Shown: piece after piece, positions 13,549 through 18,219 of the stretch
Layout: each line of letters starts with the position of its first letter
How positions within the stretch are numbered: position 1 is the stretch's first letter
NCBI RefSeq assembly: GCF_014189455.1
Contig: NZ_CP050296.1
Span: forward strand, 2,724,001 to 2,788,000
Length of the DNA: 64,000 nucleotides
Reading direction: 5' to 3'
DNA from: Mesorhizobium huakuii
GTDB taxonomy: Bacteria > Pseudomonadota > Alphaproteobacteria > Rhizobiales > Rhizobiaceae
The notes under the pieces: model-generated
Database searches by the model: none
What the model saw: the letters and a program-made list of their open reading frames with translations, nothing else
Told to the model about the DNA's origin: nothing
Made by a program: the position numbers and the translations under genes

Positions 13549-15429
13549 TTACGAGGGCCGTTTCGCCTTCTTGTGCTTTGGCGGGCCGGCATTGTCGAAT
13601 TTCGGCTTGCCCGGCTTTTTCGCCCACGGCTTTGCCTCATGCGCGGCTGCCGGGCGCTGGTCGGCTGAAGCCGGTGCACGCTTTTCGAATTTGCGCTTCG
13701 GCGCGCTCGGGTCGAACGGCGCCTTGCCGCGATGCGGCTTCTTGTCGGGGCTCGGCGGCTGATAGCCGGCCCGCGACAGGTCCGGCGTGCCGTCCAGCCG
13801 CTTCACCACGATGTTGCCCTGCAATTTGCGGTCGGGTCCGATGGCGGCGAGAAAACGCTCGGCCCAGTCCGCGGCGATCTGCACGAAGGTTTCTTCCGGC
13901 TGCATCTTGATGGCGCCGATCTCGCGCTTCGAGATGCTGCCGGTGCGGCACAGCATCGGGATCAGCCAGCGCGGCTCGGCATTCTGCCGGCGGCCGACCG
14001 ACAGCGAGAACCAGACGCTGGCGCCGAAATCGTCGCGGCGGCTCGGCGCCTCGTCGCGCGGCGCGAATTTTTCGCCCGCCGGTCTTTCACGCGCCAATCC
14101 TTCACGCGAGGGCGTGAAGGGTGCTACGTCCATCAGATCCTCGGGCGCCGAGCGGCTGGCGCGGCACTGGCGCACGAAGGCCGCGGCCACCTGCTCGGCG
14201 CCATGTTTGGCGAGCAGCGCGTCGATGAAGGTCCGCTCATCGTCCTTCACCGGCTCGTCGAAGGCCGGGTCGGCGAGAATGCGCTCGTCGTCGCGGCGGA
14301 TCACGTCGTCGGCCGAGGGCGGGCTTGCCCAGGTCGCCTTGAGGCCGGCATTCTGCAACAGCCGCTCGGTGCGCCTGCGGGCGCTGCCCGGCACGATCAG
14401 CGCGCTGACGCCCTTGCGCCCGGCGCGGCCGGTGCGGCCGCTGCGGTGCAACAGCGTTTCCGGATTGGTCGGCAGGTCGGCGTGGATGACCAGTTCGAGA
14501 TTGGGCAGGTCGATGCCGCGTGCCGCGACGTCGGTGGCGATACAGACTTTGGCGCGGCCGTCGCGCATCGCCTGCAGGGCGTGGCTGCGCTCGTTCTGGC
14601 TGAGCTCGCCCGACAGCGCGACCACGGAAAAATTGCGGTTGTTGAAGCGCGCGGTCAGATGGTTGACGGCGGCGCGCGTGTTGCAGAACACCAGCGCGTT
14701 CTTCGCCTCATAGAAACGCAGCACGTTGATGATGGCGTTCTCGCGGTCGGCCTGGGCGACGCTGAGCGCCCGGTATTCGATGTCGAGATGCTGCTTTTCC
14801 TCGCCGGCGGCCGAGATGCGGACGGCATCGCGCTGATAGCCCTGGGCCAGCGTGGCGATCGAACGCGGCACGGTGGCCGAGAACATCAGCGTGCGGCGTT
14901 CGGCCGGGGCGGCGTCGAGGATGAATTCAAGGTCTTCGCGAAAACCGAGATCGAGCATCTCGTCGGCCTCGTCGAGCACCACGGCCCTGAGCGCCGACAT
15001 GTCGAGCGATTGCCGTGTGATGTGGTCGCGAAGGCGGCCGGGCGTGCCGACGACGATATGGGCGCCGCGCTCCAGCGCGCGGCGCTCGGTGCGCATGTCC
15101 ATGCCGCCGACGCAGGACGCCACGGTGGCGCCGGTCGGCTCGTAGAGCCATTCCAGTTCACGCGTCACCTGCAGCGCCAGCTCGCGCGTCGGCGCCACCG
15201 CCAGCGCCAGTGGTGCCGTGGCCGCGCCAAAGCGCTCGGCGCCGTCGAGCAGCGTCGGCGCCATGGCAAGGCCGAAGGCCACGGTCTTGCCCGAACCGGT
15301 CTGCGCCGAGACCAGCGCATCGGCCTGGCCAAGCTCCAGCACGGCCTTCTGCACCGGCGTCAGTTCGGAATAGCCGCGTTTTTCCAGCGCCTGTGCCAGC
15401 GCCGGGACGATACCTTCAAAGTTGGACAT
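13549..15429 (-). CDS. DEAD-box RNA helicase (DbpA/DeaD type)
   Basis: 626-residue RNA helicase. All motifs are present: Q motif SELTPVQKAVL, AQTGSGKT (I), PTRELALQV (Ia), GTPGRL (Ib), DEADEMLDLGF (II), SATVP (III), VFCNTRAAV (IV), ATDVAARGIDLP (V) and HRSGRTGRAGRKG (VI). The C-terminal part has a DbpA-type RNA-binding domain (WLIPMLCRTGSISKREIGAI, then GNIVVKRLDGTP) and ends in a Lys/Pro-rich basic tail. It probably acts in ribosome assembly or cold adaptation. The stop lies 3 bases from the convergent glycosyltransferase stop. Confidence 0.92.
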   Translation of the reverse strand: MSNFEGIVPALAQALEKRGYSELTPVQKAVLELGQADALVSAQTGSGKTVAFGLAMAPTLLDGAERFGAATAPLALAVAPTRELALQVTRELEWLYEPTGATVASCVGGMDMRTERRALERGAHIVVGTPGRLRDHITRQSLDMSALRAVVLDEADEMLDLGFREDLEFILDAAPAERRTLMFSATVPRSIATLAQGYQRDAVRISAAGEEKQHLDIEYRALSVAQADRENAIINVLRFYEAKNALVFCNTRAAVNHLTARFNNRNFSVVALSGELSQNERSHALQAMRDGRAKVCIATDVAARGIDLPNLELVIHADLPTNPETLLHRSGRTGRAGRKGVSALIVPGSARRRTERLLQNAGLKATWASPPSADDVIRRDDERILADPAFDEPVKDDERTFIDALLAKHGAEQVAAAFVRQCRASRSAPEDLMDVAPFTPSREGLARERPAGEKFAPRDEAPSRRDDFGASVWFSLSVGRRQNAEPRWLIPMLCRTGSISKREIGAIKMQPEETFVQIAADWAERFLAAIGPDRKLQGNIVVKRLDGTPDLSRAGYQPPSPDKKPHRGKAPFDPSAPKRKFEKRAPASADQRPAAAHEAKPWAKKPGKPKFDNAGPPKHKKAKRPS

Positions 15430-15562
15430 CTCGCTCTTTCGGAATTCAGGGGTCTGCGCTCATCATGGAGCACGAGCCGGGGCCGGCGCCGCGCCAGCCA
15501 AACAATCTTGGCCGTTCGTACTTCTTGGCGTCGCTCTTGTACAGGGAGAGCCGCACCGGTTC

Positions 15563-15713
15563 TTCCTTCTCCCCTTGTGGGAGAAGGTGGATCGGCGCGC
15601 AGCGCCGAGACGGTTGAGGGGTGGGTGACGGAGTGCCGTCGGCGCCAAGCTGGAGCACCCCTCATCCGGCCTCGCTTCGCGAGGCCACCTTCTCCCGCAA
15701 GGGGAGAAGGAAG
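15563..15713. repeat. R1 palindromic intergenic repeat
   Basis: About 150 bases, with outer arms CCTTCTCCCCTTGTGGGAGA and its near complement TCTCCCGCAAGGGGAGAAGG. The body contains GGCGCGCAGCGCC and CCTCGCTTCGCGAGG hairpins. Full or partial copies occur at 17173, 46236, 55667 and 2484. It lies between the helicase and the asd leader. Confidence 0.85.
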
Positions 15714-15804
15714 AGAGGCCGCCAATTGACTCCTGCCGCAAACCGCGTAAAAGCCCGCTTCGAACGGGATCGTTTTTCGATGCGCGGCCTTTTGATGGCT
15801 CTTC

Positions 15805-15833
15805 TTGCATTCGACGCCCCCAGCCACAATGTA
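15805..15833 (+). promoter_or_regulatory. Candidate sigma-70 promoter of the asd leader
   Basis: TTGCAT (15805-15810) and AATGTA (15828-15833) are separated by 17 bases. This would start transcription near 15840, about 40 bases before the leader peptide. Both hexamers are imperfect, so this is a plausible prediction only. Confidence 0.4.
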
Positions 15834-15881
15834 AAGCATTGGGCCGGGCGCTTAGACGTGTCCGTCCGTTCCAGCAAAACC

Positions 15882-15923
15882 ATGGCCAAAACCACCACCA
15901 AAACCACCACCAAAACGGTGTGA
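15882..15923 (+). CDS. Thr/Lys-rich leader peptide upstream of asd
   Basis: 13-codon ORF encoding MAKTTTKTTTKTV, then TGA. Seven residues are Thr (six ACC, one ACG) and three are Lys. Threonine and lysine are both end products of the pathway branch fed by Asd. It lies in the 5' region of asd, 107 bases before its start, and is followed by mutually exclusive hairpins and a terminator-like stem at 15941-15993. No strong Shine-Dalgarno sequence precedes the ATG; rhizobial leader peptides can be translated from very short 5' ends, so this does not exclude translation. It is interpreted as the ribosome sensor of a transcription attenuator. Confidence 0.65.
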   Translation: MAKTTTKTTTKTV

Positions 15924-15940
15924 TTCCCTTGGCCTAACCA

Positions 15941-15993
15941 CCCTCTCCCGGGTTCGGCCCGGGGGACGGAACCCGCATTGGCCGGCGGGTTTT
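15941..15993 (+). promoter_or_regulatory. Attenuator structure in the asd leader
   Basis: Three competing pairings are visible. (a) CCCGGG 15947-15952 pairs with CCCGGG 15958-15963, extendable outward by 3 pairs. (b) CGGGTTC 15949-15955 pairs with GAACCCG 15969-15975 as a candidate antiterminator. (c) AACCCGC 15970-15976 pairs with GCGGGTT 15985-15991, followed by T at 15990-15993 as the terminator. Pairings (a) and (b) exclude each other, and (b) and (c) exclude each other. The U tract is short, which is common in high-GC genomes. Confidence 0.6.
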
Positions 15994-16030
15994 CTCCAAC
16001 AAACCAAGCGGAGAGGGACAGGAGATCTTT

Positions 16031-17065
16031 ATGAGTTTCAAGGTTGCAGTCGTCGGCGCCACGGGAAATGTGGGCCGGGAAATGCTCAACATACTGGAAG
16101 AGCGCGGCTTTCCGGTAAGCGAAGTCGTGGCGCTGGCGTCGCGGCGCAGCCAGGGCACGGAAGTGTCGTTCGGCGACCGCACGCTGAAGGTCAGGACGCT
16201 CGACCAGTATGATTTTTCCGACACCGACATCTGCGTCATGTCGGCAGGCGGCAACGTCTCCAAGGAATGGTCGCCGAAGATCGGCAAGCAGGGCTGCGTC
16301 GTCATCGATAATTCGTCGGCCTTCCGCTACGACCAGGACGTGCCGCTGATCGTGCCGGAAGTGAACCCGGACGCGATCTCGCTGTTCACGCGCAAGAACA
16401 TCATCGCCAACCCGAACTGCTCGACGGCGCAGCTGGTGGTGGCGCTGAAGCCGCTGCATGACTTCGCCACCATCAAGCGCGTCGTCGTCGCCACCTACCA
16501 GTCGGTGTCGGGCGCCGGCAAGGAAGGCATGGACGAGCTGTTCACGCAGACCCGCGCGGTGTTCGTCGCCGACCAGGTCGACGTCAAGAAGTTCACCAAG
16601 CGCATCGCCTTCAACGTCATTCCGCATATCGACGTCTTCCTCGACGATGGCTTCACCAAGGAAGAGTGGAAGATGGTCGCCGAGACCAAGAAGATGCTCG
16701 ATCCCAAGATCAAGCTGACGGCGACCTGCGTGCGCGTGCCGGTGTTCATCGGCCATTCGGAAGCGGTCAACATCGAGTTCGAGAAGCCGATCACCGCCGA
16801 CGAGGCACGCGATATCCTGCGCGACGCGCCCGGCTGCCAGGTCTTGGACAAGCGCGAGGACGGCGGCTACATCACGCCGCTGGAATCGGCCGGCGAGGAT
16901 GCCACCTTCATCTCGCGCATCCGCGAGGATTCGACCGTCGACAACGGCCTGTCGATGTGGGTCGTCTCCGACAATCTGCGCAAGGGCGCGGCGCTGAACG
17001 CCGTGCAGATCGCCGAGCTCCTGGTCGAGCGCGGCCTGATCCAGCCGAAGAAGAAGGCGGCCTGA
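16031..17065 (+). CDS. asd: Aspartate-semialdehyde dehydrogenase
   Basis: 344-residue Asd. It reduces aspartyl phosphate to aspartate semialdehyde with NADPH, the branch point to lysine/diaminopimelate and to threonine/methionine. The Rossmann motif VVGATGNVG is at residues 8-16, and the catalytic cysteine is Cys130 in NPNCSTAQ. SVSGAGKEGMDELFTQT and PVFIGHSEAVNIEFE are further family signatures. ATG 16031 follows GGAGATCTTT. A Thr/Lys-rich leader peptide and attenuator-like structure lie upstream, so expression is probably controlled by charged tRNA-Thr and possibly tRNA-Lys. Confidence 0.97.
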   Translation: MSFKVAVVGATGNVGREMLNILEERGFPVSEVVALASRRSQGTEVSFGDRTLKVRTLDQYDFSDTDICVMSAGGNVSKEWSPKIGKQGCVVIDNSSAFRYDQDVPLIVPEVNPDAISLFTRKNIIANPNCSTAQLVVALKPLHDFATIKRVVVATYQSVSGAGKEGMDELFTQTRAVFVADQVDVKKFTKRIAFNVIPHIDVFLDDGFTKEEWKMVAETKKMLDPKIKLTATCVRVPVFIGHSEAVNIEFEKPITADEARDILRDAPGCQVLDKREDGGYITPLESAGEDATFISRIREDSTVDNGLSMWVVSDNLRKGAALNAVQIAELLVERGLIQPKKKAA

Positions 17066-17172
17066 CGGCGGTTTAGCTTTCGCTCACGGGCCGTATCGCC
17101 GCTGCCGCGGCGGGCCCTCCGCGAGGGCGCCGGACGACCGGCGGCCCGCGGTCCTGGGCTTATGGCGCCCTT

Positions 17173-17321
17173 TCCTTCTCCCCCTGTGGGAGAAGGTGGA
17201 TCGGCGCGCAGCGCCGAGACGGTTGAGGGGTGCGTGACGGAGTGCCGTCATTGCCAAGCTGGAACACCCCTCATCCGACCTCACTTCGTGAGGCCACCTT
17301 CTCCCACAAGGGGAGAAGGGA
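17173..17321. repeat. R1 palindromic intergenic repeat
   Basis: Second full copy of R1, about 90 percent identical by eye to the one at 15563. The two copies bracket asd in direct orientation, so recombination between them could delete asd. It fills most of the gap between asd and the GNAT gene. Confidence 0.85.
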
Positions 17322-17349
17322 AAGCGCGCACCTGCCCCTCAGATTGAGC

Positions 17350-18219
17350 TTACTTATGAACGGTACTCGGCCTGTCACTCTGCGTCCGGCCATCGGCTCG
17401 GACGCTGCTCCCATTGCAAAAATCATGCGGGCAGCACTTGCTTCCTTCGACTGGATGCCGGTCATCCACACGCCGGTCGAAGACCTCTTTTTCATCCGCG
17501 ATATCGTGCTGCCACGGCAGCAGGCGACAGTCGCCGAAGCGGGCGAGCAGATCATCGGTTTCATCGCCGTCAGCGACGAATGGGTGGAACAACTCTATCT
17601 CGACCCGACCTGGACAGGACAAGGCATCGGCAGCCGGTTGCTGATCGACGCCACCGCTGCCCTGCCGGTCGCGAAACTGCACTGCTTCCAATCCAACACC
17701 GGAGCCCGGCGCTTCTACGAGCGCCATGGCTTTCGCGCGGAAGCGTTCGGCGACGGCACGACCAACGAGGAAGGTCTGCCTGATATCTTGTATGTCCGCA
17801 GACTCTAATTTCAGCCAGCGCTGTCCTTTGGCGAGCTGGCGCAGCAGCCCCAACGCCTCCTCCGCCCGCTCCGCCGGAACGAACAGATGATCGTGATAAA
17901 ACGCCGAGACCGGATTGACGCCCATGCCGGCGGCGGCGAGGCGCGTGGTGATGGCGGCGAGGAAGCCGACGGCTTCCAGCGATGAGTGGATGTTCAGCGT
18001 GATCATCCGGCAGCGAAACGAGGCGGCCAGCCCGGCTGTCTTTGCCGCGTCCTCCGTCACGATCAGCGTCGTGCCCTCGCGCTCGCGAAACACCATCACC
18101 GGGTCGAGGCCATCGGGTGGGGAAATGCCCGGCGCCAGCGTGGCGAAGACATGGATGCCGTCGAGCAATTCCGGCGTCATGGATGCCAACAATGTCTTCA
18201 GATCGGTCTCGCCGGTCAT
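17350..18219 (-). CDS. ACT-domain protein, with abnormal C-terminal read-through
   Basis: The first 140 residues are a compact ACT-type regulatory protein seen in Rhizobiales: MTGETDLKTLLASMTPELLDG, FREREGTTLIVTEDAAK, then CRMITLNIHSSLEAVGFLAAITTRLAAAGMGVNPVSAFYHDHLFVP and AEEALGLLRQLAKGQRW. Family members end about there. Here no stop occurs and the frame runs another 150 codons antisense through the GNAT gene to 17350. That extension has no protein-like features, so the supported coding region is about 17800-18219. Either the stop was lost or a frameshift lies near 17810. ATG 18219 follows AGGCGAGAGAA. The ACT ligand, presumably an amino acid, is unknown. Confidence 0.7.
   Translation of the reverse strand: MTGETDLKTLLASMTPELLDGIHVFATLAPGISPPDGLDPVMVFREREGTTLIVTEDAAKTAGLAASFRCRMITLNIHSSLEAVGFLAAITTRLAAAGMGVNPVSAFYHDHLFVPAERAEEALGLLRQLAKGQRWLKLESADIQDIRQTFLVGRAVAERFRAKAMALVEAPGSGVGLEAVQFRDRQGSGGVDQQPAADALSCPGRVEIELFHPFVADGDETDDLLARFGDCRLLPWQHDIADEKEVFDRRVDDRHPVEGSKCCPHDFCNGSSVRADGRTQSDRPSTVHK
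17356..17808 (+). CDS. GNAT-family N-acetyltransferase
   Basis: 150-residue acetyltransferase. VTLRPAIGSDAAPIAKIMRAA opens the fold, EQLYLDPTWTGQGIGSRLL is acetyl-CoA motif A, and FYERHGFRAEAFGDGT is motif B. ATG 17356 is preferred; upstream in-frame sequence is R1 repeat. The convergent ACT-domain gene on the other strand has no stop codon until after this gene's start, so this gene is entirely overlapped by an antisense reading frame. Confidence 0.88.
   Translation: MNGTRPVTLRPAIGSDAAPIAKIMRAALASFDWMPVIHTPVEDLFFIRDIVLPRQQATVAEAGEQIIGFIAVSDEWVEQLYLDPTWTGQGIGSRLLIDATAALPVAKLHCFQSNTGARRFYERHGFRAEAFGDGTTNEEGLPDILYVRRL

Follow-up and report, generated by a model that had tools for sequence, protein, structure and literature searches.

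Does a short open reading frame (ORF) rich in threonine (Thr) and lysine (Lys) codons upstream of the asd gene of Mesorhizobium huakuii belong to a leader peptide that controls this gene, and if so, at which step would the control act? We have addressed this question in a stretch of 64,000 nucleotides (nt) from contig NZ_CP050296.1 (positions 2,724,001 to 2,788,000), which is called the window below and is numbered from its first letter. Lysine/diaminopimelate, threonine and methionine all derive from the branch-point precursor that Asd makes. A sequence-only reading of the window had proposed transcription attenuation of asd by a 13-codon Thr/Lys leader, an antiterminator and an intrinsic terminator. 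The link between a Thr/Lys leader peptide and asd has held up well; the peptide is conserved well past the genus and shows a marked choice of Lys codons, and control of asd by this peptide through ribosome stalling is highly probable. The best explanation for the whole leader, which we hold with moderate confidence, is a ribosome-mediated attenuator acting near the asd ribosome-binding site (RBS).

The 13-codon ORF (MAKTTTKTTTKTV; seven Thr and three Lys) is found in the sequence as had been described, with its stop codon TGA at 15921-15923, 107 bases upstream of asd (16031). In many congeners its start codon (ATG at 15882) is missing or reads ACG, and because this start is not conserved, the 13-codon ORF was rejected as the entire leader. 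The likely start is an in-frame ATG at 15780, around which TTTCGATGCGCGGCCTTTTGATGGC is largely conserved, in frame, at the congener loci; the Thr/Lys-rich ORF is likely the C-terminal end of a longer small ORF (sORF) of 47 amino acids (aa) at 15780-15923, ending SKTMAKTTTKTTTKTV. In an unconditioned nucleotide alignment of 51 unique Mesorhizobium-type leaders, all 11 distinct indels inside the sORF are multiples of three. The same holds for 1 of 14 in the stretch from its stop to asd and for 1 of 3 upstream of its start. The ratio of nonsynonymous to synonymous variation (pN/pS) is 0.58 for the sORF and 0.42 for its last 14 codons, and the frame is intact in 51/51 leaders, a count that is biased if taken alone because starts were chosen in frame.

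Leaders range from 38 to 52 aa in length. A protein search gave 127 homologues at E<=0.01, and among the best 120 of these many have 39-50 aa; in Mesorhizobium many of the matches listed bear the name hypothetical protein. With a profile built from other leaders, 579 matches were obtained at E<=0.1, the best 120 of which include Rhizobium, Agrobacterium and Ensifer names. Two leaders searched against Pfam and four against NCBIfam had no match, and an Rfam search of 14000-18000 at E<=5 gave three hits, all under the gathering scores and none in the leader. By eye, a CCGGC...GCCGG-type hairpin is seen within the sORF upstream of the Thr/Lys run in many loci (e.g., L072 and L090, handles of the compared loci), and this is possibly a pause hairpin.

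To follow the distribution of the Thr/Lys run, we took the best ORF end upstream of asd and counted Thr and Lys in its final 14 residues, which gave the score. The stretches scored were 230 nt long for loci of the order, and 260 nt long for those of the class and for the null. Upstream regions were taken from 40 of 247 genomes of one set and 40 of 105 of another. The window scores 11. Among 716 random windows of the named loci, 9 score at least 5, one of these scores 6 and none scores 7. A score of at least 6 was obtained for 114 of the 115 loci of the window's family, which are not independent because several unnamed loci of L001-L030 come from the same genomes as named ones (e.g., L003, L034); the sole exception (L148, score 3) is a 1.5-Mb genome without a Thr/Lys run before asd. 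In the order's other families the score is at least 5 for 23 of the 34 loci scored, corresponding to 16 families with the run and 8 without, and L123, unscored because its contig is too short, nevertheless reads MIKKTTTI*. Outside the order, 4 of 39 parsed loci (L157, L162, L170 and L184) score at least 7; L182 was unparsed, and L176 was not taken for a leader, its score of 5 being due solely to Lys in the last residues of an ORF that has 50 residues or more. At several other loci there, by eye, a longer ORF ends a short way ahead of asd. The sequence-only reading had named orthologous asd leaders lacking a short ORF or stems as evidence that would overturn it; when the compared loci were checked for this, such evidence was not obtained, and the run is conserved beyond the genus. 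The codon pattern for TTTKTV followed by TGA occurs once in the window's own genome, at the asd leader. As a separate observation, four Agrobacterium loci (L098, L102, L105 and L106) have the tail IRITAKTTIKTV, with fewer Thr and Lys and three isoleucine (Ile) codons, as if these tails read the Ile supply too.

The Lys codons of the run are mostly AAA: 139/144 in 43 Mesorhizobium-type loci, 151/169 in 55 other loci of the family and 42/53 in 23 loci of other families, the three groups used hereafter. In comparison, AAA accounts for 47 of 1828 Lys codons in 80 asd genes and for 104 of 622 in 46 long ORFs of the window, which were picked by composition. The transfer RNA (tRNA) genes found in the genome include one tRNA-Lys(UUU) and one tRNA-Lys(CUU). 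According to the portion of PMC1183508 consulted, attenuation theory expects the codon most sensitive to starvation, which is not necessarily a rare one. The AAA preference may also have a structural reason. Since the few Lys codons in the N-terminal part of the sORF are likewise often AAA (10/14, 5/8 and 8/14), some of the bias may be a property of the sORF in its entirety. This point, together with the A/C-rich nature of Thr and Lys codons and the avoidance of G when AAA is used over AAG, would suit an sORF that is translated and acts otherwise, as a small protein or a general translation sensor, with Thr and Lys serving RNA or peptide chemistry such as an A/C-rich unstructured stretch or a Rho site; a rhizobial leader peptide, peTrpL, is reported to be active in trans in the part of PMC7298713 consulted. 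We consider such a role improbable: the run is kept while the residues ahead of it vary, the downstream gene makes the precursor of Lys and Thr, and the Thr codons of the run resemble those of asd, being mainly ACC and ACG with no shift to ACA.

Three helices, named PL, S1 and S2 (Table 1), were examined for covariation. PL, formed by the last codons of the run, shows 17 cells changed on both sides at synonymous sites against 5.5 in shuffled data (0/500), and slid versions of the helix are lower; two of the five measures used are not above shuffles (452/500 and 486/500), and relatedness can inflate the others. RNAalifold, which recovered just 10 pairs over the whole leader, found PL unprompted. 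One set (A1) comprised 48 of 49 non-redundant family loci plus the window, without L094, and the alignments of leaders comprised 26 of the 49 plus the window (A2) and 18 of the 49 (A3).

For S1 and S2, whose spacing is variable, the best helix of the true partners was compared with that of swapped partners, a permutation that removes relatedness only partly. The test with n=70 used 47 of the 49 family loci (L079 and L094, with long spacers before asd, being left out) and, from other families, the 23 of 35 loci that have a leader, while the strict set (n=25) consisted of 9 family loci below 72% identity and one locus for each other family. S1, which joins the first 13 nt after the stop to a region about 31-60 nt from the stop, gave z=6.17 (0/5000) in the strict set. 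In the window's family its median distance from the first base of the stop codon is 4 nt. S2, which joins 13-50 nt from the first base of the stop to 8-38 nt before the asd ATG, gave z=6.29 (0/5000, n=70) and z=2.86 (24/5000) in the strict set, and ends a median of 14, 17 and 21 nt before the asd ATG in the three groups, that is, beside the Shine-Dalgarno (SD) sequence and not over it. Because the order along the RNA is S1 strand, S2 strand, S1 partner and S2 partner, the two helices cross and together would form an H-type pseudoknot. The S2 strand also has 2 nt or more in common with the 5' arm of the best local hairpin in 42/42, 34/54 and 18/21 of the loci that have both. Pairing of the post-stop strand with the RBS region, used as a control, was negative, being below chance. 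Two further candidates were dropped: pairing of the post-stop strand with the asd SD was unconvincing (244/5000 and 545/5000 permutations as high or higher), and pairing of leader codons with the post-stop strand reached z=3.52 only when pooled (0.12 in the family, 0.71 in the others).

Table 1. Features of the asd leader region in the window, in order of position
Feature	Positions	Strand	Basis or remark
Promoter-like TTGACT (15726-15731), N16, TAAAAG (15748-15753)	15726..15753	+	motif recurs in family loci; predicted from sequence
Leader sORF, 47 aa MRGLLMALLAFDAPSHNVKHWAGRLDVSVRSSKTMAKTTTKTTTKTV	15780..15923	+	indels in multiples of three, frame kept, pN/pS, homologues
Thr/Lys run KTMAKTTTKTTTKTV, 8 Thr and 4 Lys of 15, all four Lys AAA	15876..15920	+	codons read
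PL, hairpin in the last codons, CACC 15905-15908 with GGTG 15917-15920	15905..15920	+	91.3% of cells paired
S1, TCCCTTGG 15925-15932 (just after stop) with CCGGGGGA 15959-15966	15925..15966	+	z=6.17
S2, CCCTCTCC 15941-15948 with GGAGAGGG 16010-16017	15941..16017	+	ends 2 nt before asd SD
P2, CCCGGG-TTCGG-CCCGGG hairpin	15947..15963	+	excludes S1, overlaps S2 5' strand
P3, terminator-like stem	15970..15991	+	U-rich tail mainly in Mesorhizobium; arms z=2.42, 53/5000 (strict set, n=25)
asd Shine-Dalgarno sequence AGGAG	16020..16024	+	direct reading
asd, aspartate-semialdehyde dehydrogenase	16031..17065	+	profile matches

Judged by covariation, S1 and S2 are better backed than the antiterminator of the sequence-only reading. 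The CCCGGG hairpin of that reading is present as described (P2) and has strands in common with both S1 (its 3' strand) and S2. The antiterminator itself exists as a complementarity (CGGGTTC 15949-15955 with GAACCCG 15969-15975), and its 7-bp pairing is not conserved in congeners. It requires the loop GGGTTCGG, which by eye is present in the window and 4 of the 29 other loci of L002-L030, while the remaining 25 of the 29 carry GGGTCCGG or GGGTACGG; the antiterminator as drawn was therefore rejected. A shorter core is still able to pair, as CGGGT:ACCCG in L011 and as CGGGC:GCCCG in L073.

Termination is a serious rival to control near the ribosome-binding region. In its classical form, as in trp and thr, stalling would favour S1 as an antiterminator, and otherwise P3 or a Rho-dependent stop would end transcription before asd. 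S1 occupies the position that helix 2:3 has in trp. The terminator stem proposed earlier does pair (AACCCGC 15970-15976 with GCGGGTT 15985-15991), and the TTTT said to follow it includes two T of the stem, so that only two T, in TTCTCC, stand before CTCC. A stem with UUUUCUCC is found in 34 of the 43 Mesorhizobium-type loci. Outside the order, L170 has a Thr/Lys leader followed by a canonical terminator, with the stem AGGCCGCA/TGCGGCCT (GGCCGC-GCGGCC) and 7 T in the next 8, and the 5' arm of this stem can pair with a GCGGCC that closely follows the leader stop; L157, L162 and L184 fall below 5 U of 8 after the stem. Against classical attenuation, a stem followed by at least 5 uracils (U) of 8 is present in 34/43 Mesorhizobium-type loci but in just 8/55 of the remaining family loci and 0/23 of those from other families, counts by which an intrinsic terminator as the general output was ruled out. 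In addition, a generic scan of 15700-16060 listed no plus-strand terminator-like site, P3 included, and termination leaves S2 at the RBS unexplained. We regard this rival as unlikely, and because the terminator is no general feature of the order, the leader is not classed as a trp-type transcription attenuator. What is shared within the order is S2 beside the asd SD and not termination, and on these grounds we favour control close to the ribosome-binding region; that the output lies there and not at intrinsic termination we hold as an evenly balanced proposal.

The attenuator acting near the asd RBS would operate as follows. Transcription from the conserved promoter would give an RNA with the 47-codon leader, in which 12 of the last 15 codons specify Thr or Lys (AAA). 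Scarce charged tRNA-Thr or tRNA-Lys would slow the leader ribosome on the run. Depending on its position, this ribosome would cover 15925-15932, the strand right behind the leader stop, or leave it free, and the outcome would select either S1 or its alternative, the hairpin P2. This choice would free or engage 15941-15948, which may pair as S2 directly upstream of the asd SD and thereby lower asd translation. Starvation would raise asd, a direction taken from physiology, and the control would be exerted mainly at translation initiation and, in Mesorhizobium, perhaps also at P3. The comparison of loci supports the predicted sORF, the Thr/Lys run, the AAA bias, PL, S1 and S2. Features of a ribosome-mediated attenuator can be recognized in the sequence: a short ORF between promoter and structural gene, a run of codons for end products of the pathway, and mutually exclusive helices with one strand within reach of the leader ribosome, among which S1 and S2 covary and P2 does so without significance.

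In a simulation with the loci of the n=70 test, in which leader ribosomes mask the RNA, exposure of the SD rose slightly when the ribosome stood late in the run or at the stop, from 0.414 (ribosome-free) to 0.461 and 0.441 in the family and from 0.481 to 0.540 and 0.580 in the other families. Several results speak against the proposed switch. In the family (n=47), masking barely shifted S2 or the wider RBS, with no clear switch; in the other families (n=23) S2 was 9.32 for a late stall against 7.21 at the stop; and in both groups an early stall made the SD less exposed, a shift in the wrong direction. The nested minimum-energy fold of the window favours P2, whose partners do not covary significantly (z=1.25, 531/5000, strict set). 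Since the strands are rich in pyrimidines or purines, chance helices are common: an S1 of at least 6 bp is found in 22/23 loci of other families against 19.8/23 with a shuffled strand, and an S2 of at least 6 bp in 42/43, 54/55 and 21/23 loci against 19.1, 35.2 and 16.6 with a shuffled asd-proximal strand. As for the sORF, stops interrupt frame +1 in 44/51 leaders and frame +2 in only 11/51, and because frame +2 is thus also open in 40/51, openness alone says little. The folding suggested by the sequence-only reading was carried out, and the energy of the window's leader is ordinary (z -1.09 and -1.24 against shuffles). Such an ordinary fold would agree with the absence of any regulation, the conserved upstream ORF and hairpins merely setting basal asd expression; we regard this as very improbable in view of the covariation inside the codons of PL and the conservation of the run across families.

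A wider scheme can be put forward tentatively, as somewhat doubtful: an old alphaproteobacterial sensor of two end products (Thr and Lys through rare AAA) may be coupled to differing outputs, namely a crossing, pseudoknot-like S1/S2 switch at the asd RBS in Hyphomicrobiales and a classical terminator in some lineages outside the order. Such a sensor would amount to amino acid attenuation at the level of translation, with a single conserved leader peptide as its base.

The downstream gene was identified as asd by TIGR01296 (470.2 bits, cut-off 324.2) and PRK14874 (530, cut-off 223), and the named loci nearest to it are from Mesorhizobium. A DEAD-box helicase gene lies upstream of the leader on the opposite strand. 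The distance from TAAAAG of the promoter-like motif to the start codon is 26 nt in the window and 22-29 nt in most other family loci printed, with exceptions including L058, L068, L081 and L100. A generic sigma-70 scan of 15700-16060 listed no promoter, because TAAAAG lacks the final T that the scan requires. The leader-asd unit is flanked by two copies of an element (15563-15715 and 17172-17324; 92% identical over 153 nt, with inverted ends of 29-30 nt), which looks like a palindromic intergenic repeat.

In the literature searched, including the parts consulted of PMC1273637, PMC1183508 and PMC9373788, such an element is described in PMC10117765 alone; the main text of PMC1273637, a survey of alphaproteobacterial RNA motifs, has no "asd" in the portion consulted. 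The consulted part of PMC10117765 describes SEP5 of Sinorhizobium meliloti as translated, located in the asd 5' untranslated region, with six Thr and three Lys near its 3' end, "possibly a leader peptide", and conserved only in Sinorhizobium. Since an Ensifer database protein, homologous to our leader, ends SKTTAKTTTKTV with exactly six Thr and three Lys, SEP5 very probably belongs to the asd-leader family and is very probably the same element as the Mesorhizobium leader, as judged from counts and location and not from sequence. RNA structures and codon bias are given here and do not appear in the SEP5 account as far as that part goes. Within the reach of our searches, it is new that the leader is conserved across the order and also outside it, that its start has been corrected, that its Lys codons are biased to AAA and that S1, S2 and PL covary. 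What was one printed remark on Sinorhizobium can now be tested as a family, for which a start codon, a codon bias and pairing strands are defined. If the leader reads both Thr and Lys, it would be a two-input sensor at the aspartate branch, common to plant symbionts and their relatives, and if its output is at translation initiation, amino acid attenuation would be extended beyond termination.

Among known systems, thrL of Escherichia coli resembles the asd leader in being rich in aspartate-family end products and in using ribosome stalling as the sensor. It differs in that its inputs are Thr and Ile and that it acts on thrABC by means of an intrinsic terminator, whereas the asd leader has Thr and Lys, precedes asd, is of 38-52 aa and has no general terminator. 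The translational attenuators of ermC and cat share the principle proposed here for asd, that the position of the leader ribosome decides sequestration of the downstream RBS; they sense drugs, whereas the codon run of asd points to amino acid supply. A rhizobial parallel in kind is peTrpL of the S. meliloti trp attenuator, also a leader peptide for amino acid control, which, in the consulted portions of PMC7298713 and PMC10117765, is unlike the asd leader in having 14 aa, a leaderless sORF and a tryptophan attenuator.
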